A stretch of DNA of 64,000 bases from assembly GCF_009725755.1 (NCBI RefSeq), contig NZ_WNIJ01000001.1:186001-250000 (forward strand), given 5' to 3'. The position numbers were made by a program, and so were the translations under genes. How positions within the stretch are numbered: the stretch's first letter is position 1; every line of letters starts with the position of its first letter. The stretch is from Bombella sp. ESL0385. GTDB lineage: Bacteria > Pseudomonadota > Alphaproteobacteria > Acetobacterales > Acetobacteraceae. Below, in pieces: positions 23,148-48,495 of the stretch. The notes below the pieces were generated by a model. That model ran no database searches, was not told the DNA's origin, and saw only the letters and a list, made by a program, of their open reading frames with translations.

Positions 23148-23918
23148 ATGGGACGGATTTCTGGAAAGATCGCATTAGTCACCGGTGGTGGTAGCGGCAT
23201 CGGTAAAGGCATCGCCGTACTTTTGGCTAAAGAAGGGGCCAAGGTCATCGTTGCGGACCTCAACCCAAAGGGTGGTGAAGAGGTCGTAGAAGAGATTCGC
23301 AAAGCTGGTGGCAAAGCATGCTTCTTACCGCTGAACGTGGCGAAAGAAGATGAGTGGAAAAAGACGATGGCCGCCATCAAAGAGCATGATGGCCGTCTGG
23401 ATATTGTCGTCAATAACGCTGGTATCGCTTTTGATGGTACGATTGAGAGCACCTCTTTGGAGGAATGGCGGCGTGTGCAGTCCATCAATTTGGATGGTGT
23501 CTTCCTCGGTGTGAAATATGCCGTTGCTGCGATGCGTGAGCTGAATGGTGGGGATGGCGGGTCCATCGTCAATATGTGCTCCAGCTCGGCTCTGGTAGGG
23601 ATTCCCAACCTCGCTGCTTATGGCTCCTCCAAGGGTGGGGTGAAGATGCTGACCAAGTCCGCTGCGCTGCATTGTGCGCGTAAGGGCTATAAGATCCGCG
23701 TCAATAACGTCTGCCCCGGCTACATCCAAACACCGCTGGTTGATGAACTGACCCGCACAGATAAAGCTGCTTATCAGCATCTTGTGGATATTCACCCTGT
23801 CGGTCATCTGGGTACGCCAGAAGATGTGGCTTATGGTGTGCTGTATCTGGCCTCTGATGAATCCAAATTCGTCACCGCTACCGAGCTGGTGATTGATGGT
23901 GGTTACACCTCCGAGTGA
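23148..23918 (+). CDS. Short-chain dehydrogenase/reductase
   Basis: A 256-residue classical SDR. The cofactor motif TGGGSGIGKG is near residue 12, NNAG near 90, and the catalytic serine and YxxxK are in MCSSSALVGIPNLAAYGSSKGG. The C-terminus ends VIDGGYTSE, as in cyclic-alcohol, carbonyl and 3-oxoacyl reductases. VADLNP after beta-2 supplies an acidic residue, which favours NAD(H). A GAGGAG ribosome binding site lies about 11 bp upstream of the ATG, and a strong terminator follows. It stands alone between divergent tauD and convergent cysK. Substrate is unknown. It is also the only visible reductase that could, in principle, supply the ketoreduction missing from the polyene cluster, but nothing links them directly. 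Confidence 0.9.
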   Translation: MGRISGKIALVTGGGSGIGKGIAVLLAKEGAKVIVADLNPKGGEEVVEEIRKAGGKACFLPLNVAKEDEWKKTMAAIKEHDGRLDIVVNNAGIAFDGTIESTSLEEWRRVQSINLDGVFLGVKYAVAAMRELNGGDGGSIVNMCSSSALVGIPNLAAYGSSKGGVKMLTKSAALHCARKGYKIRVNNVCPGYIQTPLVDELTRTDKAAYQHLVDIHPVGHLGTPEDVAYGVLYLASDESKFVTATELVIDGGYTSE

Positions 23919-25650: not shown

Positions 25651-25972
25651 AAAAATAGTTTTTTAGAAATAAACAATAAAAAAATATTTTTTTTACTTTG
25701 CTATACAACAAGGCGTAATCCTTCTCATCTCGATAATTTACTTATCCAATACACAGCCAAAAGGATGTTTTCTTTTCCATTACTTTTGGATGGAAAACCA
25801 TTAAAAAATTATATCCTTTTTTCATCCTTGTAATAAAAAAATTATTTTTGATTAATCTATATTGATATAGCGTTAATTCTTGGTTACCTTAGCGTAAGGT
25901 TTTTATCTGTAACGATACGAGTCTTTGAGAGCCCATTTCAGTGGGTGTGGTTCTTGGGCGCGGGGAGGAAAT
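25651..25972. other. AT-rich region upstream of the autotransporter
   Basis: This 322-bp gene-free stretch has very low GC compared with its surroundings. It contains TTTTCCA (25773-25779) with TGGAAAA (25791-25797) as an inverted repeat, and a short hairpin ACCTTA-GCG-TAAGGT (25886-25900) followed by TTTT, which looks like a small intrinsic terminator or attenuator about 70 bp before the autotransporter start. TTGATT near 25846 is a possible -35. The region probably holds the autotransporter promoter and untranslated leader. Confidence 0.45.
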
Positions 25973-31735: not shown

Positions 31736-32998
31736 TTAAAGTCCAGATGAGTGCTTAAAGCGTTTTGCAAGCCCGAAGATTACTGTAAAAGCGCGGAAGG
31801 GAATCATAACCCGCCATGAAGGGGCAAAATTTCCCGCTAAGAGGGCAATGATAGCATCGCGCATTCTAAGAGGTTTGTTTTTAGGGCGCATGAAGAAATA
31901 GCGTAACAGCGGGTCATTGATGCGATAGACGAGCCAGCTAATCAGTTGCATTTCTTGGCGTGTTTGACGCTCAGCCTTACGGGCGGCTTTGCGGCCCCAT
32001 TGGGGGCTAAGTAACCATTGGGAGGCAACATGAGCCCCACGGAGGGCCCCTTTCATGGCTAGCATGACGCCGGAGGAAAAGACGGGGTCCAAAAAGCCGA
32101 ACGCATCTCCAATGATGAAATAACGCTCCCCCCATGCTTTGTCGCCTTTATAGGAATAATTGCCCGTGGTGGAGAGGGGGGCGAGGGCTTCGGCTTTGGC
32201 CATACGGGCTTGTACGCTAGGGCTTGCTTGCACATGCTTCCAGAAGAGTGCGTCGAGAGAGCCACCATGATGTTTAAAGCTTTCATGGTCGCCTACAAAA
32301 CCAACACTCATGACATCATCTGGCAGGGGGATCATCCAAAACCAACCGCCCTGGACAAGATGGACGGAGATATAGCCCTCCATCCCTTCGCCTTCAGCGC
32401 GTGGGACATTGCGGAAATGGCTGAAGATTGCCGCTTTATTATTGCGAAGGTCGCTATATTTCTGCCCATGTTGGCGGAGCATGAGCGTATCTCTCCCAGA
32501 GGCATCAAGGAGAAAACGAGGGGCAAAGAGGCGCATCTCGCCCGTTTCCGTTCTGGCTTCGATTAAAAGGGTTGCGGTGGATGTGAAAGATACTTTTGTA
32601 ACGCGTGTTTTCTCTAGCGTTGTGGCCCCAGCTTTTGCGGCATGGCGAAAGAGTATTTCATCAAATTCAGCCCGTCGAACCTGGAAGGCATGGTCCGCTT
32701 GTGCATCAATGGCGTAACGAAAAGGGAAGGACATGCGCCCCTCTCCTGTGTCGGTAACAAATTCTGCACCAGGTTTGTACACGCCTATAGCGGCAACATC
32801 GTCCAAGACGCCCAGCTCTTTTAGAATGGGTATATTGCAGGCGAGCAAGGATTCCCCAATGTGAAAGCGGGGATGCTGCTCTTTTTCTATTATAACGACA
32901 TCAAGTCCTTGTCGTGCCAAGGTGATTGCCGCTGTGCTGCCTGCTGGCCCACCACCGATAATGAGAACATCACAAGGAAGGGGAGAGTTGTTGGTCAT
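31736..32998 (-). CDS. FAD-dependent oxidoreductase, flavin halogenase-like
   Basis: A 420-residue flavoprotein with an N-terminal FAD-binding motif VLIIGGGPAGSTAAITLARQ and HPRFHIGESLL, as in the geranylgeranyl-reductase/tryptophan-halogenase superfamily. GGWFWMIPLPDD contains the W-x-W-x-I-P motif associated with flavin-dependent halogenases, and GDAFGFLDPVFSSGV is the second FAD contact. The final 60 residues are basic and may touch the membrane. Related flavoproteins occur in xanthomonadin and flexirubin clusters. Halogenation of the polyene aryl ring is possible; hydroxylation or reduction is the alternative. It ends the biosynthetic operon, 5 bp after the dehydratase stop. Confidence 0.8.
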   Translation of the reverse strand: MTNNSPLPCDVLIIGGGPAGSTAAITLARQGLDVVIIEKEQHPRFHIGESLLACNIPILKELGVLDDVAAIGVYKPGAEFVTDTGEGRMSFPFRYAIDAQADHAFQVRRAEFDEILFRHAAKAGATTLEKTRVTKVSFTSTATLLIEARTETGEMRLFAPRFLLDASGRDTLMLRQHGQKYSDLRNNKAAIFSHFRNVPRAEGEGMEGYISVHLVQGGWFWMIPLPDDVMSVGFVGDHESFKHHGGSLDALFWKHVQASPSVQARMAKAEALAPLSTTGNYSYKGDKAWGERYFIIGDAFGFLDPVFSSGVMLAMKGALRGAHVASQWLLSPQWGRKAARKAERQTRQEMQLISWLVYRINDPLLRYFFMRPKNKPLRMRDAIIALLAGNFAPSWRVMIPFRAFTVIFGLAKRFKHSSGL

Positions 32999-33003
32999 AA
33001 CAG

Positions 33004-33429
33004 TTATCCAGTTGGTAACATGACAGTCCCTGTCCCGCTCAGTAGGAGCGTGGTAGAAGGGCTCAAGAGGGAGAAATCATAAATCATGCCATTATGGCTC
33101 TGATGTTTCTGCGTGACGGTAATGGTCAGCCTATCCCAATGGGGGATATCCAGCCTATCGCAATGGATGTGAATATCACGCACGCTTGTTAGCCAGCCTT
33201 GGCGGGCTTCATGGGCGGTTAGTGCTCCATGAAGGGCCGCTGCTTGCATGGCTATCTCTACCCCTGTGATAGGTGGGAGATGGTCTGCGATACGGTAAGG
33301 ATTCGCGGGGTCATTATGGCATAATATCTGGGCTGTTAGCTGTGTTGCATCCCAGTGGGTGGCACGGTCTAACAAACAGCTTACCCCTTGGTGAGGAATA
33401 AGGGTGAGTATGTCATCACGAGTTAGCAT
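33004..33429 (-). CDS. 3-hydroxyacyl-ACP dehydratase (ApeP-like hot-dog protein)
   Basis: A 141-residue single hot-dog domain protein. It opens LTRDDILTLIPHQGVSCLLDRA, where the histidine after IP corresponds to the catalytic region of FabZ-like dehydratases of aryl polyene clusters, and continues with ITGVEIAMQAAALHGAL. It would remove water from the 3-hydroxyacyl chain in each elongation round to create the double bonds. Its start overlaps the preceding ketosynthase-like gene by 14 bp, so the two are translationally coupled. It is distinct from the dehydratase fused to the ligase. Confidence 0.85.
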   Translation of the reverse strand: MLTRDDILTLIPHQGVSCLLDRATHWDATQLTAQILCHNDPANPYRIADHLPPITGVEIAMQAAALHGALTAHEARQGWLTSVRDIHIHCDRLDIPHWDRLTITVTQKHQSHNGMIYDFSLLSPSTTLLLSGTGTVMLPTG

Positions 33430-34213
33430 GAGCGAGGGCGAGTCTAAGATGGTTCTCCCCGTAAGGCAAGGTGAGCGTGCAGTCCCGTTTATGGGCTATG
33501 GCATAGAGTAGCGGGAGAACATGCCCTGCTGGGTTATGACGTAGAATGTTCATCATCACGTCTGGGAGAGGCGGTGGCGGAGTGGCCTCACCTTTTCCCT
33601 CTTGGAAGGATAATGTGAGCGATAGGGCTCCGTTTGTACCAGGTGTGAGGATGAACGCACAACTAAATGCGTGGTCTGTGCGGCGTGCTGTGCCTAAAGA
33701 GCCGGGGACGGGCGCATCATAAATGCAGAATAGAACGGGGCGTTGCTCTATATGCGCTTCAATAGCGGCTTTGAGGAGCGCGGCGGGGAGGGTTTCATCA
33801 TGAAGGCCGAGTGAAACAGCCGACTGGTGGCTGTGATGGCCGATCATCCAATAACCTGCTGGTGCATTATGGACGGAATTATGAAAGAGCGAGGGAGATA
33901 CCGCCCCCCCCGGTGTGGTGAGGGATTCCAAAATTCGGTTGATGATAAAGCCATCCCCATTAGAGCTTGCAAAAATAATGGGGAGGTCCTCCGGCTTATA
34001 GGGGGTTTGTTGGCAGGCTTCTTCAGCGCAGAGCACAGCAAGACGGATAATCTGGCTTGCTCGGCGTTGTTCATTGATCGGGAGGCTCGTAGGAGCGGGA
34101 AGTTTTAGCGATTCAGCACATAAAGAGGCTTCACCACGAAGGATGTTTTGTACGGTTGGCCAACCATGCAGCCCCTCTCCCCAACAGCCAATGGCTTCGA
34201 TTGCGACGATCAT
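33416..34213 (-). CDS. Beta-ketoacyl synthase-like partner (chain-length-factor-like)
   Basis: A 265-residue protein with only the N-terminal half of a thiolase fold (DLPIIFASSNGDGFIINRILE; SPSLFHNSVHNAPAGYWMIG). The segment where an active ketosynthase would have its cysteine reads VHNAPAGYW, so it cannot carry an acyl thioester. It matches the short ketosynthase-like proteins of aryl polyene clusters, which pair with the full ketosynthase. It overlaps that gene by 4 bp (ATGA type), consistent with a heterodimer. A role in controlling chain length is inferred. Confidence 0.85.
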   Translation of the reverse strand: MIVAIEAIGCWGEGLHGWPTVQNILRGEASLCAESLKLPAPTSLPINEQRRASQIIRLAVLCAEEACQQTPYKPEDLPIIFASSNGDGFIINRILESLTTPGGAVSPSLFHNSVHNAPAGYWMIGHHSHQSAVSLGLHDETLPAALLKAAIEAHIEQRPVLFCIYDAPVPGSLGTARRTDHAFSCAFILTPGTNGALSLTLSFQEGKGEATPPPPLPDVMMNILRHNPAGHVLPLLYAIAHKRDCTLTLPYGENHLRLALAHANS

Positions 34214-35415
34214 GCAAACCTCCCTAGAATGAGGCTGCTATTAGTCCCGCCAAAGCCAAAGGCATTATTCATTACATAATCAGAGCGGCTATGACGGGCG
34301 GTAAGGAGAATATCGCTGCGAAAGGTAGGGTCAGTTGTGTGGCTATTCATGCAAGGGGGGAGGTGATGAGTATTGAGTACGATAGCGCAGATCATCGTCT
34401 CTAAAATACCAGAAGCTCCTAGCGTATGGCCTGACCATCCTTTGGTAGAAGAGCATGGCACGCGAGACCCAAAGAGTGCGTAAATCGCACTATCCTCCAT
34501 TTTATCATTTGCGCGGGTGCCGGTACCATGCATGTTGATATAGCCAATCGCCTTGGCGGGGAGGTGTGCGTGTTCTAATGCGCGTTGCATAGCGCGTATG
34601 GCCCCTGCCCCAGTGGGATCGGGAGAGGACATATGGTAGCCATCACTACTCGCCCCATAGCCGACAAGCCGCGCTCTATAACTTGATGTTCCGAGGGGAA
34701 GAGGGCGGGCGTTAGCACGCTCTAATAAAGCAAAACCGGCGGCCTCCCCAATGGAAATGCCATCACGCTCGGCATCACATGGGCGAGCAGGGTGAGGGGA
34801 GATGAGCTCTAGTGAAGTAAAACCTTGGAGGGTCATCCGGCATAGGCTATCGGCCCCGCCAACAATAGCGGCATCACATACGCCGCTCGTAATAAGATGA
34901 GCGGCATCTATAAAAGCCCGTGTGGAGGAGGCGCAAGCGTTGGAAATGGTCAGCAAAGGCCCACTAACACCGAGTCGTGCAGCGACATAACGGGGGAGGG
35001 AAGAGAGGTCTTGCGTGTTGGTGTAATGAAAGCTCTTTGGTAGCGTCGGGTCACCGGGCGTACGGGCTGCGTATGCCTCTTCTGCACTGAGAATACCGGA
35101 TGTGCTTGTACCCATAATGACCGCAATGCGATGAGGACCATAATGCGCAGATGCGGTTTTTACAGTTTCTATGAAGCCATCTGTCATTAAGGCCATATCG
35201 GCCAGTCGGTTATTCCGGCAGTCAAATTGTGCGAGATGAGGGGGGATGACATGCTCCTCCACCCCGGCGACTCGTCCTATATAACCATGCCCTGTTGGTT
35301 GAAATTGGTCAGGTTGGAGGGTGTGTTGCTTATTTTGTAAACAACGCTGCGTTGCTTCTATGCCGCGCCCCATAGCACTAATAGCGGTTCCTGCGGTGAT
35401 GATAAGCTCTGTCAT
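34210..35415 (-). CDS. Beta-ketoacyl-ACP synthase (FabF-type, polyene chain elongation)
   Basis: A 401-residue condensing enzyme. The nucleophilic cysteine is in TISNACASSTRAFIDAA, and the two histidines are in INMHGTGTRANDKMED and STKGWSGHTLGASG. AFGFGGTNSSLILGR closes the fold. It would extend the aryl starter with malonyl-ACP units. Length is normal and all three catalytic residues are present, unlike the partner encoded next. It overlaps both neighbours by 4 bp. Within aryl polyene clusters it matches the main ketosynthase (ApeO/ApeR type). Confidence 0.92.
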   Translation of the reverse strand: MTELIITAGTAISAMGRGIEATQRCLQNKQHTLQPDQFQPTGHGYIGRVAGVEEHVIPPHLAQFDCRNNRLADMALMTDGFIETVKTASAHYGPHRIAVIMGTSTSGILSAEEAYAARTPGDPTLPKSFHYTNTQDLSSLPRYVAARLGVSGPLLTISNACASSTRAFIDAAHLITSGVCDAAIVGGADSLCRMTLQGFTSLELISPHPARPCDAERDGISIGEAAGFALLERANARPLPLGTSSYRARLVGYGASSDGYHMSSPDPTGAGAIRAMQRALEHAHLPAKAIGYINMHGTGTRANDKMEDSAIYALFGSRVPCSSTKGWSGHTLGASGILETMICAIVLNTHHLPPCMNSHTTDPTFRSDILLTARHSRSDYVMNNAFGFGGTNSSLILGRFA

Positions 35416-37727
35416 AGCTTCGCTCTCATTGATGCTTTGGGAGGCATGGCCCCCATAAGGAGGAAGCTAAAGATCAACGCCAATAAGGCCCCGCAGGAGA
35501 TGGTGAGGCCAATTTCTCGCAAGAGGGGTGTTTGGCAGCTGGCGAGGATAGCAAAGGAAGAAACAGTCATCAGGTTACAGGTTAAGAGTGTGCGTAGGGT
35601 GCGGGTGCGTTCGGCCTCATCTAATTGAGGTCGTCCAAAAAAAAGAGCGTAATCTATATTTACACCTAGCACAAAGGCGAGGGCGACAATATGGATGATT
35701 GAAAAAACAGGGTGATGAAGGCGCAATAAGGCTAATGTACTTAGGCCGGTGAGCGTTAAGGTGAGGGCCACACGGCCAACGCGCCCTGGGCTTTTAAGGC
35801 AGAAAAAGAGGGTTATGAGGGCAAAAGCTGTCCCGATGATGAGCCATAAGGCCGCTTGTTGAACATAAGGGTGAAGCAGGTCGCCTACGGCTGTCCTCAT
35901 ATTCACCAGCAATATTGTAGGGTCGTGCTGAGCATCACGACGCAACCATTCGGCTGCTTCTGGCGTGCGGGGGATAAGCAGGCCGTACCAACTGCCATGA
36001 CGGGGAAAGAGTAGGAGTGCAAGGCGATAAGCGAGCGTGGTGTTAGTGAGGTCTTCTATTCCTAGGGATGGTTGTTGTTGTGCGGAGGCAACGTCCCGAG
36101 GGATAGTGGCGAAGGCATCAGCTGAGAAGGGAGAGCCTTGTAACGCTGTATGTAGATTAGCTGTGATAAGTTTTTCTGGCGGGAGGCTCTCCACCCTGTG
36201 TTGCTGGCGGGCTTTGCTGGGGAGTAGTAACGCAGCAGCTTCTATATCATGTGAGGGGGGGAGACGCTCTAGAATGGCTTCTTCCCGCTGAAGGACAGTT
36301 TCACTATCAGCGGCGTGGATAACACCTAACAGGCCTGCTTGGGGGGCTCCAAGTTGTTGACGGAGTTGGCGGTCCGTTTCGAGCATGGAAGGGGGTATGG
36401 GGTTGAGGATTTGGCCTTGGCGTTCGATTTGAAAAGGATGAAGCCAGAGGAGGGCCAAAGCTAAGGGGGCAGCAAGAAGGCAGAGCATACGATAATGCCG
36501 TAATTTTTCCCAGCGTAAGAGCGAGCGGGAAATGCCTTGATGATAGGCTGCTAAGTCGGCCTGGGTGATGAGATGGGGCAGCACCCAGATGGTCAAGCAT
36601 GCGGCGGTGAGGATGCCGATGGCTGAGAACAAACCGAGTTGCATAAGCCCCGGCAAGCCGCAGAAGATCATACTTAATAGGCCGATGATGGCTGTCAGAG
36701 CGGCTAATTTCAGGCTTGTACCGATACGGCCTAAGACAATGGGGATGGCCTCGCCTTTATCACGATGGCCGAGGAGGAGAACGGGATAATCTAACGAAAC
36801 CCCCAGCATAGTCATGCCAAACCCTAGGGCAATGCCATGTACCCAGCCAAAGAGGAGGTGTAGCCCGAGCATAGCGAGAGAGAGAGACAGCAAAAACGGC
36901 ACACCAATGGCGGCTAGGACCCAAAGGGAGCGAAACCGCCAATATAGGATTATAATAACGAGTGAGAGAGAGAGTAGGGCCAGGCGGTCCATATCATGCC
37001 GCAGGGATTGTGCAGCAAAAAAAGAGAAAGCTGGTGTGCCTGTAAGGGTGAGCGTGTAGCCTTTATGCCCGTCTACACTTTGGGCAAAGGCTTGCATAAT
37101 GGTGTGATGAAGTTGCGTGAGCTGGGCGGTATCAAGGCTGGGATGGCGGAGATGGAGCAGCATCAATGTGGCGTGATGGTCCGTTGTGAGCCATAAACCA
37201 TCTTTGCTCTGAGGTGGGTTTACTTCATTGAGACTTGCCAAGTAATCCCCATAAGCCCCTGTAGGGTCATGTAGGCCGACATCTTCCACCACGGGGGCTG
37301 CCATAGATTGTAGGAGGTCGTAAAGCTGGTTTAGGTCGGTTCTGAGAGCCGTTGGGGTGAAAAGGCGGGTATGGTCATGAGGGGCAAGACCATAACGATG
37401 AGCAAAAAGAAGGGGCTGGTCCTTTTGCCATGAGAGGGCGCTCGGGCCATCAAGAATAAGGTTGAACTGCCCTCCCGCGACTAAAGCGTCATGAAAGCGA
37501 TGGCCTATGTTGAGGAGAGTGGCTTCATCATCGCCTTTGATAGAGGCGAGCATAAGGGATTGCGTCGTCCCGTTATTAAGCTCGTCAAGCAGGAACTGAG
37601 ATGTATCGTCATGGGGCCGGGGGAGGAAGGCCCGCATATCCATGCGTAAAGGGATGCAGGAGAATGTACCTATGGCTACGGCGATGGCGCAAAAAACTGC
37701 GAGTAGGAGGGGGAGGCGGCGTCTCAT
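35412..37727 (-). CDS. RND/MMPL-family exporter of the polyene cluster
   Basis: A 771-residue inner-membrane protein with the duplicated RND plan: one N-terminal helix, a periplasmic loop (about 30-235), a helix bundle, then the same again. The D-Y motifs typical of MMPL proteins are visible as MTMLGVSLDYPVLLLGHRD (about residue 330) and LGVNIDYALFFGRP (about residue 680). Such exporters are constant members of aryl polyene and xanthomonadin clusters and are thought to move the lipid-linked pigment toward the outer membrane together with a LolA-like protein, which is encoded directly upstream here with a 4-bp overlap. Confidence 0.9.
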   Translation of the reverse strand: MRRRLPLLLAVFCAIAVAIGTFSCIPLRMDMRAFLPRPHDDTSQFLLDELNNGTTQSLMLASIKGDDEATLLNIGHRFHDALVAGGQFNLILDGPSALSWQKDQPLLFAHRYGLAPHDHTRLFTPTALRTDLNQLYDLLQSMAAPVVEDVGLHDPTGAYGDYLASLNEVNPPQSKDGLWLTTDHHATLMLLHLRHPSLDTAQLTQLHHTIMQAFAQSVDGHKGYTLTLTGTPAFSFFAAQSLRHDMDRLALLSLSLVIIILYWRFRSLWVLAAIGVPFLLSLSLAMLGLHLLFGWVHGIALGFGMTMLGVSLDYPVLLLGHRDKGEAIPIVLGRIGTSLKLAALTAIIGLLSMIFCGLPGLMQLGLFSAIGILTAACLTIWVLPHLITQADLAAYHQGISRSLLRWEKLRHYRMLCLLAAPLALALLWLHPFQIERQGQILNPIPPSMLETDRQLRQQLGAPQAGLLGVIHAADSETVLQREEAILERLPPSHDIEAAALLLPSKARQQHRVESLPPEKLITANLHTALQGSPFSADAFATIPRDVASAQQQPSLGIEDLTNTTLAYRLALLLFPRHGSWYGLLIPRTPEAAEWLRRDAQHDPTILLVNMRTAVGDLLHPYVQQAALWLIIGTAFALITLFFCLKSPGRVGRVALTLTLTGLSTLALLRLHHPVFSIIHIVALAFVLGVNIDYALFFGRPQLDEAERTRTLRTLLTCNLMTVSSFAILASCQTPLLREIGLTISCGALLALIFSFLLMGAMPPKASMRAKL

Positions 37728-38332
37728 TGCGGGGTGATGATGGTCTCGGTGCTATCGCCATTTGCTTGGATGAGGCGTGTACGTTCTAGCACGTTATTGC
37801 GCCCCTCTAGTTGGACGCGTTGGATAATCTGCGCAACCTCTGATGTGCGGGGGGTGAGGAGGAGCGTCCAATGTCCCATATCGCCTTGTGCGCTGAGATT
37901 ATAGTAGGTTTGTAACAAAGTTACGTCACCTTGGAGGGGGCCGCGGATTGTTGCTGCCATAATTTGCATAGTTGGGTTTATGTGCAGGGGGATGCTCCGC
38001 ATAGGGCTTTGCCCATGTTGGAGCTGCACCATATCGCCTTCCAAAATAAAGTGATCTTGCACAGGGGTGAGGGTGTATTTCTCTATATGGTCAGGGGGTA
38101 CGAAGCGGAGCAGCCCTTCGCTATGGAGGGGTTGCTTTAACGCATGGAGCTGGCGTGTTTCACGAAAGTGATTATCCCGTTGGGAGACCAGCCCAATATG
38201 GTGAATGATCTCTACGGCTAGGGCCTCATTAGATGTGGAGGAGGCTATAGGGGCGTGGTCTTGCCTGTAGAGGGGCTGGGCTAGAGCAGGGCTGAAGGTA
38301 AGGCAGCAGAGAAGAAGAGAGAGATATTTCAT
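37724..38332 (-). CDS. LolA-like periplasmic outer-membrane lipoprotein carrier
   Basis: A 202-residue secreted protein. The ATG at 38332 (MKYLSLLLCCLTFSPALAQ) gives a clean signal peptide and lies 4 bp after the acyltransferase stop; a longer open frame upstream overlaps that gene and has no signal. The mature part is beta-rich with SEGLLRFVPPDHIEKYTL, HGQSPMRSIPLHINPTM and WTLLLTPRTSEVAQII, matching the LolA-like/DUF domain of aryl polyene clusters. It probably shuttles the lipidic product across the periplasm with the MMPL exporter. Confidence 0.82.
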   Translation of the reverse strand: MKYLSLLLCCLTFSPALAQPLYRQDHAPIASSTSNEALAVEIIHHIGLVSQRDNHFRETRQLHALKQPLHSEGLLRFVPPDHIEKYTLTPVQDHFILEGDMVQLQHGQSPMRSIPLHINPTMQIMAATIRGPLQGDVTLLQTYYNLSAQGDMGHWTLLLTPRTSEVAQIIQRVQLEGRNNVLERTRLIQANGDSTETIITPQ

Positions 38333-38336
38333 AAGG

Positions 38337-39236
38337 TCAGAGACCTTCTTCCCAGAAGTCGAAAAAATTGAACCAAGCATAAGGGTTTTGCTCACATAAA
38401 TCTTCCATCCAGCGGGCATAGGCGAGGATGTGCGGATGTAAAGTGGACTGTGTTTCCCCTTGTGAGAGAGTATCAGTAAGGCGGCGGCATGCAATATGGT
38501 AAGAGCCATTTTTCTGCCGAATGGCTGAGACAAGCACAACCGGGGCGCCTGTACGGGCAGCAAGTTGATGCGGCCCTGCGGGAAGGCGGGCGGTTTGCCC
38601 AAGAAATGTCACAGGGACAGAGCGGCTATCATCATGGGCGCGGTCGGCTAATATGCCCACTACCTCCCCTTGTTTAAGGGCGTTGAAGGTTGTGAGCATA
38701 CTATCTGCATGGCCAAGCTCAATGAGGTCGGCTTGAAAGGTCGGGGCAAGGGTTTCAATCAAACGTGAGGTTTCCCCTAGGAACCGTCGATACATCAACA
38801 TGCGAAAGCGGACAGGGGCATCTATGCCGAAATAACGGAGGACATCAAAAGAGCCAATATGTGCCCCCATGATGATGCAGCCTTTTTGTTGTTTTAGGGC
38901 GTCTAAGAGGTAGTCGCGCCCATGGATATGGATTTTATGGGGTGGGAAACGTCCACTGAGAAGATAAATGCGGTCTAAAATATTGGTGCTGTAAGCATAA
39001 ATATGTGCAAGGACCATACCATAATGGGGCTGTTGACCTCGCCCAACATTATGGAGATGAGTAAGATAGCGCCATGAGGCACGGCGCACCGAAGGATAAA
39101 AGGTGGCGTAATAAAGGGTTGCAGGCCAGCGGAATAACGCTGTGATGTGGTACCCCAAATGCAGTGCAACCCAAATGAGCAGCCGGCCGATTACTAGATT
39201 ACCCTTTTCTGGGCGGAGCCATGTGTTGGCGCTCAT
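38337..39236 (-). CDS. LpxL/HtrB-like acyltransferase
   Basis: A 299-residue protein of the lipid A late-acyltransferase superfamily. The active-site H-x4-D is seen as GAHIGSFDVLR (about residue 124), with a hydrophobic N-terminal stretch (VIGRLLIWVALHLGYHITALF) anchoring it to the membrane and a later GILADRAHDD motif. In aryl polyene and xanthomonadin clusters this enzyme is thought to attach the polyene acid to a glycerolipid or other lipid acceptor. It overlaps the ligase gene by 4 bp. Conventional lipid A acylation is less likely given the operon. Confidence 0.87.
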   Translation of the reverse strand: MSANTWLRPEKGNLVIGRLLIWVALHLGYHITALFRWPATLYYATFYPSVRRASWRYLTHLHNVGRGQQPHYGMVLAHIYAYSTNILDRIYLLSGRFPPHKIHIHGRDYLLDALKQQKGCIIMGAHIGSFDVLRYFGIDAPVRFRMLMYRRFLGETSRLIETLAPTFQADLIELGHADSMLTTFNALKQGEVVGILADRAHDDSRSVPVTFLGQTARLPAGPHQLAARTGAPVVLVSAIRQKNGSYHIACRRLTDTLSQGETQSTLHPHILAYARWMEDLCEQNPYAWFNFFDFWEEGL

Positions 39237-40882
39237 AAGGATGGGCCCTTAGCCGTACCACGGAGGATGGTGCTTGTGGTGGTATGGCCGTCATGATGAT
39301 GCAAACTAAAGCGGATCCGGCCACCGCCTAAAGCACTGGAGAAAAGATGGAGTGGTTCCTCCGGGCGGACAATGGAGAGAAATTTTACATTTTCGATAAA
39401 ATGGGGTTTGAGCTTTAAGCGTGTAAAGACTTCCTCCAGCAGGACAATGCCTGGCACAGTAGGATTCTGGGGAAAATGGCCAGGGAGGGCAGGGTGTGTA
39501 GCTGGGATGGAAAAAGGTGGATAGGAGCGTTTTTCAGCATAATCGCGGATGAGGCTCTCCCAAGCGTGCCGTGTAAGTTTGCCAATGGCATTGCGTGGTA
39601 AATGCGGCAGGCGGACAAACCGGCGTGGCATAAAGGCGGGGTCAATATAATGGCGCAGGGCCCGCATAAGGGCAGTAGTATCGTCTATTGAGCTGACAAT
39701 AAAGGCTTGCAAGCGCGTGGGTTCTGGCTTGTCGTTTTGGAGCTCTGCTTCACTAAAGAGGGGGGCGAAGCAGCCATCTAAGACCCCGTCTAGTTGGAGG
39801 AGTGCTTTGTTAAGGGCTCCATAAGAGGTGCGTTTTCCCGCGATTTTGAGGAGGTCCCCTTTGCGGCTCATGAGCGTGAAATGGCGTGGCCCTTTTTGGG
39901 TGATAATGTCATTAAGGGGGTGAGGTGTTGCATAGGGAGCGGTGCAGATATAGGCCTCTGCATCTGTTGAGGTTGGGTCTGCAGTTAGGGTTACCCCGTC
40001 GTAAAGTTGCCATGGGTCGGGGTTTATTGTGCGGCGGCTAGCAATGGAGCCTGTCTCGGTAGAGCCATAAATCTCCATCACTGGGGCGTGGAAAAGGGTT
40101 TCTGCCTCAAGAGCGAGGTCATGGGGCAGGGGAGCAGAGGCGGAGATAATGCGCCTTACTTCTGGCAGGGCGATACGTGCTGTGGTGAGGGAGCGTAGAT
40201 GCACTGGCGTTGTGATGAGCGTATGTTCTGTGGGTATGTGAGCGGCTAGTTTTTCGACATCGCGGGGGAAGAAGGAAGGGCCGCTTGCTGTGGCTGTGTG
40301 GGTATGGAGGCTTTGGAGGATGAGTGTCTCAAACCCGTACATATGGTAGGGCGGTACCGTACCTAGCATAGTCGTAGTGGTGGGATGATGTGGGGCGAGG
40401 AGGGGTAGGGCTGCGTGACTGCGAGCGACAAGCTCCCCCCAATATTTAATATGCATTTTAGCTTGGCCCGTACTGCCTGAGGTAAAGACGTAGGCCGCTT
40501 TATAGTCCACAGCAAGGTGGGGATTATCTGATTGTGTTGCCTTGAGTGTGGCCAGAGGTGGGAGGGACAGATTCACCAGCTCTTCTGGCAACGCTGTAGG
40601 GCTGCTGCAAAGGGCGTTATGTTCCTTTTGTAAGGCCAGTAATTGCGAAGCTGCGTGATTGCTGGAGAGTATGCAATATTGTCCCTTTAGCAGGCTTGCT
40701 AAAAAGACGATGGTAAAGTGTAGAGGGTCGGTATGGAGGTTGATAATGGGGCGTTCTGGCCAATGATCAGCCAAGGCCCATGCGAAGGAGAGAAGTTGCT
40801 CACCGCTAATAGGCCCGGCCATCATGTAAAAAATAGGGCGTGCTGGTGCGGTGATGAGGGATAGATCAAAAGAGGCGTGCAT
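39233..40882 (-). CDS. Acyl-adenylating ligase fused to a hot-dog dehydratase
   Basis: A 549-residue fusion. Residues 1-445 are an adenylate-forming ligase with AAYVFTSGSTGQAKMHIK (phosphate loop), VMEIYGSTETGSIA and, near the end, the catalytic lysine region LPRNAIGKLTRHAW. Residues about 450-549 are a FabZ/ApeI-type hot-dog domain with HPALPGHFPQNPTVPGIVLL, where PGHFP carries the catalytic histidine and PGIVLLE the partner glutamate. In E. coli-type aryl polyene clusters these are separate genes (ApeH and ApeI). The ligase would activate the aryl acid, possibly hydroxybenzoate from the chorismatase, and load it onto the ACP encoded 17 bp upstream. Confidence 0.9.
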   Translation of the reverse strand: MHASFDLSLITAPARPIFYMMAGPISGEQLLSFAWALADHWPERPIINLHTDPLHFTIVFLASLLKGQYCILSSNHAASQLLALQKEHNALCSSPTALPEELVNLSLPPLATLKATQSDNPHLAVDYKAAYVFTSGSTGQAKMHIKYWGELVARSHAALPLLAPHHPTTTTMLGTVPPYHMYGFETLILQSLHTHTATASGPSFFPRDVEKLAAHIPTEHTLITTPVHLRSLTTARIALPEVRRIISASAPLPHDLALEAETLFHAPVMEIYGSTETGSIASRRTINPDPWQLYDGVTLTADPTSTDAEAYICTAPYATPHPLNDIITQKGPRHFTLMSRKGDLLKIAGKRTSYGALNKALLQLDGVLDGCFAPLFSEAELQNDKPEPTRLQAFIVSSIDDTTALMRALRHYIDPAFMPRRFVRLPHLPRNAIGKLTRHAWESLIRDYAEKRSYPPFSIPATHPALPGHFPQNPTVPGIVLLEEVFTRLKLKPHFIENVKFLSIVRPEEPLHLFSSALGGGRIRFSLHHHDGHTTTSTILRGTAKGPSL

Positions 40883-40899
40883 GGATGAGGCAAATCGCG

Positions 40900-41196
40900 T
40901 TACGATGGACGATGAGCCTCAATATAATGTGCAAGGGAGCGTAATGAGTGGAATATCTCACGATTGTTATCATCATGTGATTCCAGCTTGATGCCGTACT
41001 GTGTGTTGACCATCAGGGCAATTTCAAGCACATCAATGGAATCGAGCCCCAACCCTTCCCCAAAAAGGGGCGTCTCTGGGTCGATGTCGTGGGGGTCCAT
41101 ATCAAGCTGCACGGCGTCCACAAGATGTGTTGCAACCTCGTGCTCAAAGGGGGTTTGTTCATGCAAAGGGGCAGTGGCTGTCACTGAAAGAGGCAT
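40900..41196 (-). CDS. Acyl carrier protein
   Basis: A 98-residue carrier protein from the ATG at 41196 (MPLSVTATAPLHEQ); an upstream in-frame start at 41235 would overlap the divergent gene. The phosphopantetheine attachment serine is in GEGLGLDSIDVLEIAL. It heads the minus-strand biosynthetic operon. Only 8 bp separate its start from the proposed start of the divergent membrane protein, so promoters for both operons must lie inside the opposing coding sequences or one of the starts is further in. Confidence 0.92.
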   Translation of the reverse strand: MPLSVTATAPLHEQTPFEHEVATHLVDAVQLDMDPHDIDPETPLFGEGLGLDSIDVLEIALMVNTQYGIKLESHDDNNREIFHSLRSLAHYIEAHRPS

Positions 41197-41204
41197 CCAT
41201 TTAT

Positions 41205-41873
41205 ATGAAGGGTAAAAGCTGTGACCTCTTAACACCGGGTGTAGCAGGCAGCAAGAGCCGTAGGGCTTGGCTTTGGCGGATTGTCATATTTGCTAGTGGT
41301 GTAGGAGTGGTGAATCTGACAATCGGAGGGCCTCAGTGGCAGGCAGTATGTGTCGGGTTGGGTATGATGATGCAGCTTGTGATGTTGCTGCCATACCGGG
41401 TGTGTTGGGGTTATGGATTATTATTGTGTATAGGGGTGGCCGGCGGGTTATGGCCGGGCTTTGTGCGGCTGGGGGACCAGCTCTTACTTTATGCGCTGGC
41501 TTTGCTGGGGCCGTTTATGATGTTTGTACGCTCCTTACGGCGGGGGCAGACGGCGTTTATCACACAATTAGCTGAGGCAGTACACGGGTCTTTGCGCCAG
41601 GATATACGGCGTTACACGATCATCCTAACATGGGTGTGGAGCGGCTTTTTTATGATCGCCTTGGGGGCCCCGGTTATTTTGTGGCTCTATGCGCCACAGC
41701 AAGGATGGTGGCATATCCCCATACGCGGCGGTACGTTGGGCGTGGCATTGCTTTTATTTTGTGGTGAGATGCCTCTGCGGCGGGTGATTATCCGTCACTA
41801 TCAACATGCCACATTAAAGCAAAATATTATGGCAAGCCGTGTTGTTTTTATGAGAAAGAACTCTCTATTCTGA
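41205..41873 (+). CDS. COG4648-type membrane protein of the polyene cluster
   Basis: A 222-residue inner-membrane protein with about five hydrophobic helices. The middle segment FVRSLRRGQTAFITQLAEAV followed by LRQDIRRYTIILTWVWSGFF resembles the COG4648 proteins found in aryl polyene and xanthomonadin clusters, whose function is unknown. The ATG at 41205 (MKGKSCDLL) is chosen as the first one outside most of the divergent ACP gene; a longer frame starts at 41127 inside it. It heads the plus-strand operon with the two methyltransferases and the chorismatase. Confidence 0.75.
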   Translation: MKGKSCDLLTPGVAGSKSRRAWLWRIVIFASGVGVVNLTIGGPQWQAVCVGLGMMMQLVMLLPYRVCWGYGLLLCIGVAGGLWPGFVRLGDQLLLYALALLGPFMMFVRSLRRGQTAFITQLAEAVHGSLRQDIRRYTIILTWVWSGFFMIALGAPVILWLYAPQQGWWHIPIRGGTLGVALLLFCGEMPLRRVIIRHYQHATLKQNIMASRVVFMRKNSLF

Positions 41874-41913
41874 TAGGTCTTAAATAGTTCACTCATATGT
41901 GATGAAATAGGCC

Positions 41914-42645
41914 ATGTCTGATAGTACATTTTCTTCACAACGCTCATCGTCTTTTGTGCCTGGGGACATGCGGGAGGGCATTATGGCGCGTGGTTTATTT
42001 GATGACGTGGCAATATATTATGATCGGATAAATAGCTTATTTTCTCTAGGGACGGGTCGTTGGTATCGTCGTCGTATGCTCAGGCGTGCGGGGTTGCAGC
42101 CGGGGCAAACCGTTTTGGATGTGGCTATTGGCACAGGCCTCATCGCGCGGGAGGAGGTAGCTATTATAGGGGCGGAGCATGTTATAGGGGTGGATGTAAG
42201 TTGGGGTATGCTCCAGCAATGCCAACGCGCTTTGCCTATTTCGCTTGTGCAGGGGGATGTGATGTCCCTTCCTTTTGGCGATGAGAGTATTGACTTCCTT
42301 AGTCTAGGTTATGCGTTGCGTTTGATGGAAGATTTGACTCAAACCTTCGCTGCTTGCCGCCGTGTGTTAAAACCGGGCGGGCGGATTTTGGTCCTGGAGA
42401 TTGGGCGGGCGGAGAGCCGTCTATTGCATAAATTATTGCATATTTATCTAGGACGGGTTGTTCCATTTTTATCGGGGCAAGCGGCGTATCGGGCGAGTCG
42501 CGGCCTGATGAATTATTATTGGGATACGCTAGAGAGCTGTGTATTTCGCCACGATGTGATCGCAGCGATGGAGCGTGCGGGGTTTCATAATATACGGTGC
42601 GAGGTCTCTTGTGGTGTGTTTCACGCATATATGGGGTGTGTGTAA
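41914..42645 (+). CDS. UbiE-like SAM-dependent methyltransferase, copy 1
   Basis: A 243-residue class I methyltransferase similar to UbiE/COQ5. The SAM-binding motif I is TVLDVAIGTGLIARE, with GVDVSWGML (motif II), LPFGDESIDFLSLGYAL (where UbiE has YGLRN) and LKPGGRILVLE (motif III). The N-terminal FDDVAIYYDRINSLFSLGT is the UbiE-type leader (VAxxYDxxNxLxSxG). The next gene is a clear paralogue, and this copy is the more diverged: ALRLMEDL here against ALRHVADL in copy 2. Methylation of the aryl headgroup or of a quinone precursor are both possible. Confidence 0.85.
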   Translation: MSDSTFSSQRSSSFVPGDMREGIMARGLFDDVAIYYDRINSLFSLGTGRWYRRRMLRRAGLQPGQTVLDVAIGTGLIAREEVAIIGAEHVIGVDVSWGMLQQCQRALPISLVQGDVMSLPFGDESIDFLSLGYALRLMEDLTQTFAACRRVLKPGGRILVLEIGRAESRLLHKLLHIYLGRVVPFLSGQAAYRASRGLMNYYWDTLESCVFRHDVIAAMERAGFHNIRCEVSCGVFHAYMGCV

Positions 42646-42691
42646 GAGGGATAGTAGATGCATTTATTGTCGGATGTGCTAAGGAGGCGGC

Positions 42692-43426
42692 ATGTCTAAT
42701 TCTCCTAAATCTCCTCATCCTGTTTTATCGCGCTTTTATGCACATCGTGAAGAACGCGAAGAATTCGTTAGTGGTTTGTTTGATGAAACAGCCAGCCATT
42801 ATGACCGTATCAACGCTTTGTTTTCGTTAGGGACGGGTGGTCGTTATCGCCGGCAAATGTTGCACAAGGCGGGGTTAAGGGCAGGCCAAAATGTTTTAGA
42901 TGTCGCGGTGGGGACGGGCCTTGTTGCGCGCGAGGCAATGGCCATTGTGGGCGCAGAAAAGGTGACCGGGCTGGATATGAGCTTTGGGATGCTCCAGCAA
43001 TGCCGTCATTCTTTACCTATTTCTCTTGTACAAGGGAATGCGATGTCATTGCCTTTTGCTGATGGGAGTATCGATTTCCTCAGCATGGGCTATGCGTTGC
43101 GGCATGTAGCGGATTTACAGCAAACGTTTGCCTCTTACCATCGTGTGTTGAAGCCTGGCGGTCGTGTTTTGATTTTGGAGATCAGCCGGGCAGAGCATAA
43201 AATCGTTCAAAAGCTTTTGCAGTTTTATTTAGGGCGTGTTGTGCCGTTTCTCTCTGGTGTGGCGGCCTCGCGGGCTAGTCGTCGTTTGATGGATTATTAT
43301 TGGGATACGATAGATCATTGCGTGTCTTATCAGGAGATTATGGCCGCGATGGAAGCTGCGGGGTTTCAGGATGTGCGCTGTGATGTCGCGTTGGGGATTT
43401 TCCGTGCTTATATGGGGCGCGTCTAA
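42692..43426 (+). CDS. UbiE-like SAM-dependent methyltransferase, copy 2
   Basis: A 244-residue paralogue of the gene before it, 46 bp downstream with AAGGAGG before its ATG. Motifs are FDETASHYDRINALFSLGT, NVLDVAVGTGLVARE, GLDMSFGML, LPFADGSIDFLSMGYALRHV and LKPGGRVLILEI. It keeps the ALRHV form closer to canonical UbiE, so it may have the ancestral activity while copy 1 has drifted. The chorismatase starts 3 bp after its stop, so the pair is transcriptionally and probably translationally linked to benzoate formation. Confidence 0.87.
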   Translation: MSNSPKSPHPVLSRFYAHREEREEFVSGLFDETASHYDRINALFSLGTGGRYRRQMLHKAGLRAGQNVLDVAVGTGLVAREAMAIVGAEKVTGLDMSFGMLQQCRHSLPISLVQGNAMSLPFADGSIDFLSMGYALRHVADLQQTFASYHRVLKPGGRVLILEISRAEHKIVQKLLQFYLGRVVPFLSGVAASRASRRLMDYYWDTIDHCVSYQEIMAAMEAAGFQDVRCDVALGIFRAYMGRV

Positions 43427-43429
43427 GCT

Positions 43430-44455
43430 GTGACATCGTCTTTTAAGCGGCGGGTATTGGTGCCCCATTATGCGAGGGGTACGCCTGTTGAGACAGCGCA
43501 TAACCCTCTGGCTTGCGTGCGTTATGGGGGCGATGAAGCTGGGGTAGAGGTCGCACAGGGATGTGTTTTTATGACCCTTCCCGGCCCTTCGCCTGTTCTT
43601 TATGAAACATGGCATCCTATGCAGATAGGAGAACAACAGGCTGAGGGCACAGCGTCTATTATACCGCGTATGGCCGGTAAGGAATCTGGCATAGGTTGGA
43701 GCTGCGAAGGTGATGTGTTGTTTGCAGCTTTTTGGGTGCAAGACCAGCCAGAATTATGCGATGCAGTACAAACACATTATGAGCGTTTGATCACATTAAG
43801 CCGGCAGAAGGGCTTCCCCCATATTTATCGGATGTGGAATTATTTAGGGGCGATCAATCAGGATAATGAGTATGGGGAGGAGCGCTATCGCGATTTCTGC
43901 CGCGGGCGAGCGCAGGCATTCGATGCGCTGGGGGTAGAGCTTACGGCCCTACCTGCTGCGACAGGGATTGGGTTGCCCGCGGGAGGAGTGGCTGTTTATC
44001 TTATTGCTCATCGTGTCATGCAGGGCGTGAATGTAGAAAACCCATCTCAGTTGCCTGCTTATCATTATCCACCACGTTATGGGCGGCGGTCCCCGTCTTT
44101 TGCACGGGCTACAGTGATGGAGGGTGAGAGTCAGACAGTCCTTTACCTTTCTGGCACGGCTAGTATTCGTGGGCATGAATCGGTTGGTCATACGCTTGAT
44201 GAGCAACTTGCCATTACAATTGAGACAATCCATAGCCTGCGTGCGGCAGCAGAGAAACGCTTTCCGTGCCTTCAGGCTGGTCGGTTTGAGAGCATAAAGC
44301 TCTATGTGCGTCATCCTAAGGATGTGTCTGCTGTGCAAGCGGCAATAGAGCGTGCTTTTCCGTGTCCTGCTGGTCAAGCCCCGCTCTTGGTGGCAGATAT
44401 TTGCCGAGCGGAGCTGTTGGTAGAGGTAGAGGGTATTCTCTTAGCGCGTCATTAG
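43430..44455 (+). CDS. Chorismatase (FkbO/Hyg5/XanB2-type), hydroxybenzoate-forming
   Basis: A 341-residue protein starting at a GTG 3 bp after the methyltransferase stop. IYRMWNYLGAINQDNEYGEE followed by RYRDFCRGRAQAF, LPAATGIGLPAG and PSFARATVM match the chorismatase fold (RhWNYhxxIN and RaxaF motifs) that removes pyruvate from chorismate. Family members give 3-hydroxybenzoate, 4-hydroxybenzoate or a dihydroxycyclohexadiene acid depending on subtype. In Xanthomonas the XanB2 member feeds both xanthomonadin and ubiquinone. Next to a polyene cluster with an aryl-type ligase and no ammonia-lyase gene, it is the likely starter-unit source. It overlaps the convergent efeB gene by 15 bp. Confidence 0.87.
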   Translation: MTSSFKRRVLVPHYARGTPVETAHNPLACVRYGGDEAGVEVAQGCVFMTLPGPSPVLYETWHPMQIGEQQAEGTASIIPRMAGKESGIGWSCEGDVLFAAFWVQDQPELCDAVQTHYERLITLSRQKGFPHIYRMWNYLGAINQDNEYGEERYRDFCRGRAQAFDALGVELTALPAATGIGLPAGGVAVYLIAHRVMQGVNVENPSQLPAYHYPPRYGRRSPSFARATVMEGESQTVLYLSGTASIRGHESVGHTLDEQLAITIETIHSLRAAAEKRFPCLQAGRFESIKLYVRHPKDVSAVQAAIERAFPCPAGQAPLLVADICRAELLVEVEGILLARH

Positions 44456-45646
44456 CAGGTCCTCACCGAGATAATGACCTTTACGATAGCCGGGGCAGGC
44501 AAACAGACCGCTGCCAATATGGGTTGTGTATTGGTTCATCATATCGAACTTTGCCATACGCTCAAAAATGCGGGTGAAGGCTTTGCGTGGGTCTTGCTGA
44601 TAGGCAAGGAACATCAAGCCAGTATCAAACTCATTGCCCTGTCGCCACGGGGGCCAACGCTCTGCGATGTAGCTTAGGCCATTATCGTAGGAGTAAGCGC
44701 GCCTTAAAAACTCCGCTCCGCCATTCTCTTCTGGGGCGGCAAGGCGTGCATGGGAAGCCTCCGCCGTGATGGGATTACCGTATTTATCGGTTTGTTTGAG
44801 GGTGAGGGGATCAAACTCATGATGCCCCCCAATAGGGGCCCCGCTGCGTTTTTGCCGCCCCATTGTCTCCTCTTGGAAGCTGGTTTTCGTGCGGTCCCAA
44901 TGCTCTAGGGCAATGCGGATAATCCGGGCAACGAGATAGGTCCCGCCTGCCATCCATGCTTTATCATCATCTGCGGCCCAGAGGACGCGCTTAGCAACAG
45001 CAGGGTCGGCAATATTGGGCTGCATGGTCCCATCTTTAAAGCCCATAAGATTGCGGCCCGTTTGGTGCGGCCCAAAATCGGGGAGGAAGCCCGTTTGTGC
45101 CCAACGTGGTGTGGCGATGCCATCAGCAAGGCGGGTGAGGATGCGGATGGCATGAAAAGCCGTTTGCGGATTATCGGCACAGCTTTGGATGCACAAATCG
45201 CCCCCCGTATGGGCGGGGACAAGCTGGTCCCCTGTAAAGCGGGGGAGGTCGGCTAAGGGGGCGGGCCGTTGGGCAGCGAGGCCGAACCTATCTTTCCCCT
45301 CTTTGGTAAAAAGGGTGGGGCCAAAGCCAAAGGTGAGCGTTAGGGCCTGATGAGGCAGGCCGTATGTCTCATCAGAATCAACAAGGCCGGGGATGGGCTT
45401 CCCTGCCATAAGAGCCGCTGCGGCGTCCGTCCAGCGTTGCATAAGCTGGGCAACATCATGGCGGTTCTCGGTCGTGATATCCAGCGTGAGGAAATAGAGA
45501 AAAGGCAGTTGTGGCAGGGTAATACCCGGTTGATGGAGGAACTCTGCGGGGGATGTCGCCCAAGCATGGCGCGGGGCGAGGCAGCCCAGCCCAGCCATAC
45601 CAAGAGCAGTGCCTAGAGCTTTACGGCGTGTGAGGAGATGAGCCAT
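44441..45646 (-). CDS. efeB: DyP-type heme peroxidase (EfeB-like), Tat-exported
   Basis: A dye-decolorizing-type peroxidase of 401 residues from the ATG at 45646 (MAHLLTRRKALG), preferred over a GTG three codons upstream because of an AAGGGTG sequence before it. The twin-arginine signal is TRRKALGTALGMAGLG. The catalytic GxxDG motif is LMGFKDGTMQPN (about residue 230), and the proximal heme ligand histidine is expected in APIGGHHEFDPL. EfeB proteins take electrons or iron from heme in the periplasm. The usual efeU and efeO partners are not next to it; instead it follows a secreted beta-propeller and two porins. Its 3' end overlaps the chorismatase. Confidence 0.88.
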   Translation of the reverse strand: MAHLLTRRKALGTALGMAGLGCLAPRHAWATSPAEFLHQPGITLPQLPFLYFLTLDITTENRHDVAQLMQRWTDAAAALMAGKPIPGLVDSDETYGLPHQALTLTFGFGPTLFTKEGKDRFGLAAQRPAPLADLPRFTGDQLVPAHTGGDLCIQSCADNPQTAFHAIRILTRLADGIATPRWAQTGFLPDFGPHQTGRNLMGFKDGTMQPNIADPAVAKRVLWAADDDKAWMAGGTYLVARIIRIALEHWDRTKTSFQEETMGRQKRSGAPIGGHHEFDPLTLKQTDKYGNPITAEASHARLAAPEENGGAEFLRRAYSYDNGLSYIAERWPPWRQGNEFDTGLMFLAYQQDPRKAFTRIFERMAKFDMMNQYTTHIGSGLFACPGYRKGHYLGEDLLMTR

Positions 45647-45657
45647 GGCTTTCACCC

Positions 45658-48341: not shown

Positions 48342-48495
48342 GATGATGTCCAACTCATGGGTGATATTTATTACAGATATAAAAAAGCTTTTCTAAAAGT
48401 CAACGATTCTAATAATCATTCGCAACAAAATAGTAACGCTAGCTTCTGTCACTCCATTTTGACGTAGGATGGGGCATTATGGAGTATATTTGTTT

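Follow-up and report, generated by a model that had tools for sequence, protein, structure and literature searches.

The arcuflavin clusters of Azoarcus sp. BH72 (arcA-arcX) combine a ketosynthase (KS), a KS-like partner, dehydratases, an AMP-ligase, an acyl carrier protein (ACP), a LolA protein, an exporter and acyltransferases with a halogenase-like gene, a methyltransferase and a XanB2-type chorismatase (PMC3949708). According to the same account, ArcB makes 3-hydroxybenzoate (3-HBA) from chorismate, ArcT adenylates 3-HBA, fed 4-fluoro-3-HBA is incorporated, and the feeding of aryl polyenes by a chorismatase is established for both Azoarcus and Xanthomonas. The xanthomonadin systems of Xanthomonas and Lysobacter likewise use a type II polyketide synthase (PKS), an unusual partner resembling a chain-length factor (CLF) and a chorismate-utilizing enzyme; a halogenase gene is present in Xanthomonas and absent from Lysobacter (PMC3691225, PMC3949708), and both encode a ketoreductase (KR) (PMC3691225). 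In E. coli, the 4-hydroxybenzoate (4-HBA) starter of the apeA-R pathway is attributed to UbiC, and the gene table includes ApeQ (the KR), a second ACP, ApeR (a second 3-ketoacyl-ACP synthase) and a thioesterase, with no chorismatase, halogenase or ammonia-lyase (PMC8253772). Here we describe a 13-gene cluster of this general kind at positions 31736-44455 of a 64,000-nucleotide stretch (the window) of Bombella sp. ESL0385 (contig NZ_WNIJ01000001.1, positions 186,001 to 250,000), in which no KR gene was found.

The locus shares with Azoarcus all of the gene types listed above. The Azoarcus system differs in having the reductase arcH, a glycosyltransferase and a dialkylresorcinol locus, and in splitting its polyene genes over two loci (PMC3949708), whereas Bombella has one compact cluster with no KR, a ligase-dehydratase fusion and, in the window, two tandem methyltransferases. 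Counterparts of the E. coli and Xenorhabdus ApeB, C, D, E, G, H, L, M and O (PMC8253772) and of a dehydratase are present. We consider it probable that the locus is a functional type II PKS cluster of the xanthomonadin/arcuflavin type. Since no KR is encoded in the cluster, beta-keto reduction most likely takes place in trans, through the housekeeping FabG (C1:1079397) or another resident short-chain dehydrogenase/reductase (SDR). The cluster genes are as follows.

31736..32998, minus strand: flavin-dependent halogenase-like protein, 420 residues, with WFWMIP and GGGPAG motifs (Pfam Trp_halogenase, 97.9 bits)
33004..33429, minus strand: hot-dog 3-hydroxyacyl-ACP dehydratase of the FabZ / ApeI-ApeP fold (profile, AlphaFold model, Foldseek)
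33416..34213, minus strand: CLF-like KS partner, 265 residues, without the active-site Cys (Pfam Ketoacyl-synt_2, 79.3 bits)
34210..35415, minus strand: KS of the PRK09185 subfamily (NCBIfam NF006618, 497 bits; cut-off 407)
35412..37727, minus strand: MMPL/RND-type exporter (Pfam MMPL, 53.9 bits)
37724..38323, minus strand: LolA-like carrier (Pfam LolA_3, 50.2 bits; NCBIfam flexirubin LolA2, 48 bits, under the cut-off of 125)
38337..39236, minus strand: lipid A/lysophospholipid-type acyltransferase (Pfam Lip_A_acyltrans, 58 bits)
39233..40882, minus strand: aryl-acid ligase with a fused C-terminal FabA/ApeI-like dehydratase domain (Pfam AMP-binding, residues 116-292)
40900..41196, minus strand: ACP with the phosphopantetheine site DSID (NCBIfam NF006617, 114 bits; cut-off 70)
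41205..41873, plus strand: COG4648-type membrane protein (label from the initial annotation; place kept in 8/8 intact Bombella clusters)
41914..42645, plus strand: UbiE-type methyltransferase MT1, the faster-evolving tandem copy (Pfam Ubie_methyltran, 104.4 bits)
42692..43426, plus strand: UbiE-type methyltransferase MT2, the conserved copy (Pfam Ubie_methyltran, 127.8 bits)
43430..44455, plus strand: FkbO/Hyg5/XanB2-family chorismatase (Pfam FkbO_Hyg5-like_N, 113.8 bits, over the cut-off)

All 13 frames are open at these coordinates and form the two divergent operons described in the initial annotation: the first nine genes, from the halogenase-like gene to the ACP, on the minus strand, and the COG4648-type gene, MT1, MT2 and the chorismatase on the plus strand. 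Pfam, NCBIfam or fold comparisons supported 12 of the 13 gene assignments; the COG4648-type protein had no Pfam match, and its label is backed by its conserved place only (E. coli ApeG is annotated COG4648; PMC8253772). The reported 4-base overlaps were found at four of the eight minus-operon junctions (CLF/KS, KS/MMPL, MMPL/LolA and acyltransferase/ligase) and at none of the three plus-operon junctions. The ACP and COG4648-type genes (41196-41205) diverge with 8 bases between their starts if both ATG starts are right, so that their promoters would have to sit within the opposite gene; the ACP coordinates are given from the ATG, and a GTG further upstream is possible. The cluster is far beyond chance, with KS and ACP over their NCBIfam cut-offs and the gene order kept in 8 of 11 Bombella genomes.

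The features of an aryl-polyene assembly line were found throughout: a KS with a Cys-less partner, an ACP with an AMP ligase (substrate predicted) and a hot-dog dehydratase. The KS carries the motifs NACAS, HGT and GHT, and its top solved match is 6qsp_A; for the partner, 6qsp_B was the sole solved match at E<=0.001, making the two chains of 6qsp the closest solved relatives of the pair. The partner, which was aligned with eight relatives, lacks a Cys in the active-site region. The small dehydratase was without a Pfam match, but a profile built from 23 relatives matched the dehydratase chain 6qsr_B (E=8.3e-7), and its AlphaFold model (predicted local distance difference test, pLDDT, 93) gave Foldseek matches to FabZ and to the ApeI:P complex of Xenorhabdus. 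Overall, KS, partner and dehydratase find their closest solved relatives in 6qsp and 6qsr, the latter titled ApeI:P of X. doucetiae. In the C-terminal 100 residues of the ligase the motif HPxLxGHFP..P..PG is invariant among nine aligned sequences; the FabA-like domain scores 15.3 bits in the window, short of the Pfam cut-off of 23, and exceeds that cut-off in all four relatives scanned.

In the proposed pathway, the chorismatase would convert chorismate to 3-HBA, perhaps with some 4-HBA, and the ligase would load the hydroxybenzoate onto the ACP. The KS and its Cys-less partner would extend this starter with malonyl units, FabG or another resident SDR would reduce the beta-keto group in trans, and the dehydratase together with the FabA-like domain of the ligase would introduce the double bonds. 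Ring methylation (O- or C-methyl) may be the work of MT2 and its copy MT1, and the flavoprotein may halogenate the ring. The acyltransferase would join the polyene to a lipid, and LolA and MMPL would carry it to the outer membrane. All of the catalytic steps are inferred, as are the product and the reductase's identity. The cluster is predicted to work like the xanthomonadin type and departs from it in one of the features tested, the cluster KR.

A KR gene was found in none of the eight Bombella clusters, an absence that the initial annotation had missed. An SDR of the ApeQ kind stands beside the dehydratase in 12 of the 17 non-Bombella clusters fetched, which were hand-picked from near relatives, chorismatase carriers and others (16 Acetobacteraceae and G049, from another family; G247, of which only the chorismatase region was fetched, is outside the 17). 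Noviherbaspirillum, a betaproteobacterial relative, also has a cluster ketoreductase. The KR-less stretches outside Bombella are those of G190 and G232, both from a sister genus, and of G162, G032 and G133; this state therefore recurs in the family. Five cluster ketoreductases, 57-77% identical among themselves, were compared with the SDRs of the window's genome (10 of its 11 SDR matches, the eleventh being a domain in a 2159-residue PKS-like frame). Their best match was FabG, at 35-43% identity, and for one of the five the SDR at C1:1096928 scored slightly over FabG. A relocated ApeQ in the window's genome was rejected, similarity among these ten SDRs being only at the level of FabG. When SDRs were grouped by eye from bit scores and positions, no group was common to the cluster-bearing genomes G000, G001 and G004 yet missing from G007, G008 and G009, and one further match occurred in G004 alone.

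The best solved matches of one cluster ketoreductase are 7czc, 7caw and 6nrp, which we take to be ApeQ of A. baumannii. None of the three appears in the 32 matches that the window's FabG has at E<=1e-60; this enzyme matches other FabG entries. At the gateway or lid position, which is occupied by Leu185 in ApeQ and Phe183 in FabG (PMC8041823), 12 aligned cluster ketoreductases have Val, Ile or Met and none has Leu (the G004 FabG row was left out of this alignment).

The polyene KS was found in 8 of 11 Bombella genomes, with the shared genes in one order and the core genes near full length and unbroken. We compared nonsynonymous and synonymous substitution rates (dN/dS) for one Bombella pair and one sister-genus pair; the comparison of the window with G003 was saturated. 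Between B. favorum and B. intestini, dN/dS was 0-0.21 across 11 cluster genes, a sign of purifying selection, which argues that the KR-less cluster does something selected in these two species. At the cluster site, B. dulcis retains only a 5'-truncated chorismatase, G007 has about 0.5 kb between LysE and the right flank, and G009 carries other genes. The genes at the G009 site (L124:3043-7928) include two DNA methyltransferase-like genes, matching type II methyltransferase models of PADLOC, and other frames, and perhaps form a restriction-modification or defence cassette.

The chorismatase scored 243.9 bits against TIGR04444, under the curated cut-off of 325. It was aligned with the Hyg5-type structure 5ag3, which we take to be Hyg5 itself, and keeps the equivalents of Gly240, Cys327 and Glu334. 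Glu334 of Hyg5 is catalytic, and Gly-231 and Cys-318 of Nat-hyg5 are among the residues typical of 3-HBA-forming enzymes (PMC7170507); a constant offset of 9 suggests that these two correspond to Gly240 and Cys327 of Hyg5. At the two positions where the Bombella enzyme carries Gly and Cys, FkbO carries Ala, and such an alignment does not predict the product (PMC3949708). We also surveyed the family for association with the polyene KS, taking the KS and chorismatase surveys as covering the same 299 Acetobacteraceae genomes (handles agree where listed). A polyene-type KS exceeded the cut-off in 112 of them. Nineteen genomes had a strong chorismatase match (at least 137 bits; the line was drawn once a gap reaching to 66 bits had been seen, and the 46 genomes whose matches were weaker were not counted), 17/112 KS-positive against 2/187 KS-negative (Fisher p 2e-6). 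With Bombella excluded, the counts were 11/106 and 1/185 (p 9e-5); the genomes are related, and these p values are only a guide. Of the 17 genomes, 13 have chorismatase and KS within about 11 kb of each other, and in G133, G189, G231 and G247 the two are far apart. As 95 of the 112 KS-positive genomes have no strong match, the chorismatase is not obligatory for such clusters, and the link is real but a minority trait. The weak FkbO/Hyg5-family matches (up to 66 bits, in 46/299 genomes, many in frames of about 390-450 residues) may be another chorismatase class or RidA-like proteins.

The retained catalytic Glu, the typical Gly and Cys, and the association with the polyene KS make the chorismatase the likely source of the aromatic starter, drawn from chorismate, in agreement with the initial annotation. 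That annotation had also pointed to the absence of an ammonia-lyase, and we found no match to PF00221 in the window's genome; an ammonia-lyase starter was accordingly rejected. Its statement that E. coli-type clusters form their starter through an ammonia-lyase did not hold, as the E. coli ape gene table contains no such enzyme and 4-HBA is attributed to UbiC (PMC8253772).

Several observations weigh against a working cluster whose KR function is supplied in trans. The Phe characteristic of FabG is retained at the gateway position in the window's FabG, FabG from A. baumannii failed as a substitute for ApeQ in vitro (PMC8041823), and deletion of the KR in Lysobacter abolished the yellow pigment (PMC3691225). 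Three of the 11 Bombella genomes have no cluster or just a remnant of it, a strong chorismatase match is lacking from the 95 KS-positive genomes noted above, and the words 'polyene' and 'pigment' are absent from the main text of a Bombella comparative-genomics paper (PMC9147383); the pigment is a predicted one only. The Lysobacter result would fit an assembly line that, for want of a KR, makes a partly unreduced aryl polyketide and not a full polyene, as would the failure to find a dedicated KR in the cluster or among 10 of 11 SDR matches of the window's genome, and the rather long stem (0.5) that carries the KSs of Bombella and its sister genus in the KS tree. We consider such a product very improbable, because the dehydratase (dN/dS 0.07) and the ligase-fused dehydratase (ligase 0.10) are both kept and both need a beta-hydroxy substrate, and because KSs from clusters without a KR branch among those from KR-bearing clusters. 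That loss of the KR left a decaying relic which makes nothing has, in our view, slighter probability still: the gaps in 3/11 genomes and the lack of a KR in all eight kept clusters would agree with it, but the core genes of those eight are unbroken, dN/dS is low over 11 genes in the one species pair, and KR-less clusters also occur in G190, G232, G032, G162 and G133. A reductase other than FabG, for example the SDR at 23172-23903 of the window or that at C1:1096928, is unlikely. Four FabG-like SDRs besides FabG score 156-197 bits against TIGR01830 in the window's genome, a distance of about 10 kb separates the window SDR from the cluster in each of the three cluster-bearing Bombella genomes searched, and C1:1096928 is the SDR that outscored FabG for one cluster ketoreductase. 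Against this, these two SDRs are 31-33% identical to the cluster ketoreductases, compared with 35-43% for FabG, and the same SDR groups are found in cluster-less species.

A different role for the chorismatase and the UbiE-like pair would be in ubiquinone synthesis, with the chorismatase replacing the missing UbiC as the source of 4-HBA and its place beside the pigment cluster being secondary. UbiC (PF04345) had no match in any of the seven genomes tested (the window's included; five are Bombella), yet UbiA is present in 11/11 Bombella genomes, and in Xanthomonas XanB2 serves both pathways (as recounted in PMC3949708). However, G007 and G009 have UbiA with neither a UbiC nor a chorismatase match, the B. 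dulcis chorismatase is truncated, a separate canonical UbiE is encoded at C1:1045427 (284.5 bits), and the chorismatase stands in the COG4648 operon of the pigment cluster in all eight cluster-bearing Bombella. We therefore regard this explanation as quite improbable. Judging by G007 and G009, ubiquinone synthesis does not depend on the gene in every member of the genus, and the chorismatase was rejected as an obligatory ubiquinone enzyme; it may contribute to ubiquinone in the species that have it.

Returning to the reading of a working polyene cluster with reduction in trans, we tentatively propose a wider scenario, in which Bombella, its sister genus and perhaps further Acetobacteraceae lost their own KR and run the assembly on FabG or another housekeeping SDR, with the ACP or FabG adapted and the reductase shared with fatty-acid synthesis. 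If true, this would run contrary to the in vitro result that FabG is no substitute for ApeQ. What the comparison usefully adds is the reductase gap: according to published work a KR is needed in Lysobacter and the A. baumannii FabG is insufficient, but Bombella keeps KR-less clusters under selection.

The methyltransferase pair is restricted to the window's clade (3/8 Bombella clusters), the other five clusters having no methyltransferase. The sister-genus genomes G190 and G232 have a single methyltransferase between the COG4648-type gene and the chorismatase, 78% identical to MT2; a recent gain of the pair from outside is not favoured, as these clusters hold one relative in the same slot. These patterns suggest an ancestral single methyltransferase, with loss in one Bombella branch and duplication in the other. 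In a tree of the methyltransferases built without UbiE, the MT1 branch is 0.48 long and that of MT2 about 0.13. MT1 groups with G190/G232 at a support of only 80/78 and on a long branch, and the doubling may have come before or after the split of the genera. As a general trait, the methylation put forward in the initial annotation is unproved, 5/8 Bombella clusters lacking a methyltransferase and the window's two being a tandem pair.

The top solved matches of the halogenase-like protein are halogenases, with ChlB4 first and PltA fourth. Of the 19 cluster halogenases examined, 18 carry the motif WxWxIP and one, the second copy in G190, does not; we take WxWxIP and GxGxxG to be motifs of flavin-dependent halogenases. 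The suggested halogenation is in keeping with this motif, but the gene does not prove it, because arcuflavin is described as non-brominated although its clusters hold the halogenase gene arcA (PMC3949708). The second halogenase-like genes of the G190 and G232 clusters (L082:1336-2583 and L083:13836-15080) are 67-68% identical to the window's; that of G190 reads WFWMTP in place of WFWMIP, and the second-copy pair has a dN/dS of 0.065. On the export side, an acyltransferase, a LolA-like carrier and an MMPL exporter are expected, and all three are present.

The window's genome belongs to a bee-associated Bombella close to B. saccharophila / 'Parasaccharibacter apium' AS1. Chorismatase identity is 99% with 'Parasaccharibacter apium' AS1 and with Bombella saccharophila TMW 2.2558, and 67-69% with B. 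favorum, B. intestini, B. apis and strain B3987. An aryl-polyene cluster 14% similar to xanthomonadin was reported by antiSMASH in B. apis, where an aryl polyene is one of three candidates for antifungal activity (PMC8262860). This is presumably the same locus as the window's, because the cluster of B. apis MRM1 (G004, L035) adjoins LysE and the autotransporter and has the same order of shared genes; it lacks both methyltransferases. The passages on the B. apis cluster in PMC8262860 mention neither the chorismatase nor the missing KR. Across Acetobacteraceae, aryl-polyene clusters with a 'probable halogenase' were reported by antiSMASH (PMC8776678); the string 'chorismat' is absent from the main text of that paper, and its passages on these clusters name neither a chorismatase nor a missing KR. 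These reports weaken the suggestion that the product may be new. Our literature search returned no paper pairing 'chorismatase' with 'aryl polyene'. The cluster type being known, a chorismatase-fed pigment in a bee symbiont mainly extends its range. The natural series within Bombella (two methyltransferases, none, a remnant, absent) would allow pigment structure and role to be compared between species.

Other genes were noted around the cluster. A 1673-residue autotransporter (Pfam Autotransporter beta-domain and PATR repeats) at 25925-30946 adjoins it. In the window's clade a DyP-type peroxidase gene (44441-45655) converges on the chorismatase with a 15-base overlap; no match to it was found in the flanks (about 2-5 kb) of the five methyltransferase-less Bombella clusters. 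Two adjoining OprB-type porin-like frames at 46845-50043 are 67% identical to each other (Pfam was run on the first one). About 10-15 kb to the left of the window, a 2159-residue frame with KS and KR matches (G000:C1:170911-176295) is probably the type I PKS reported for Bombella; such a frame, of 2159-2228 residues, is listed in all 11 Bombella genomes.

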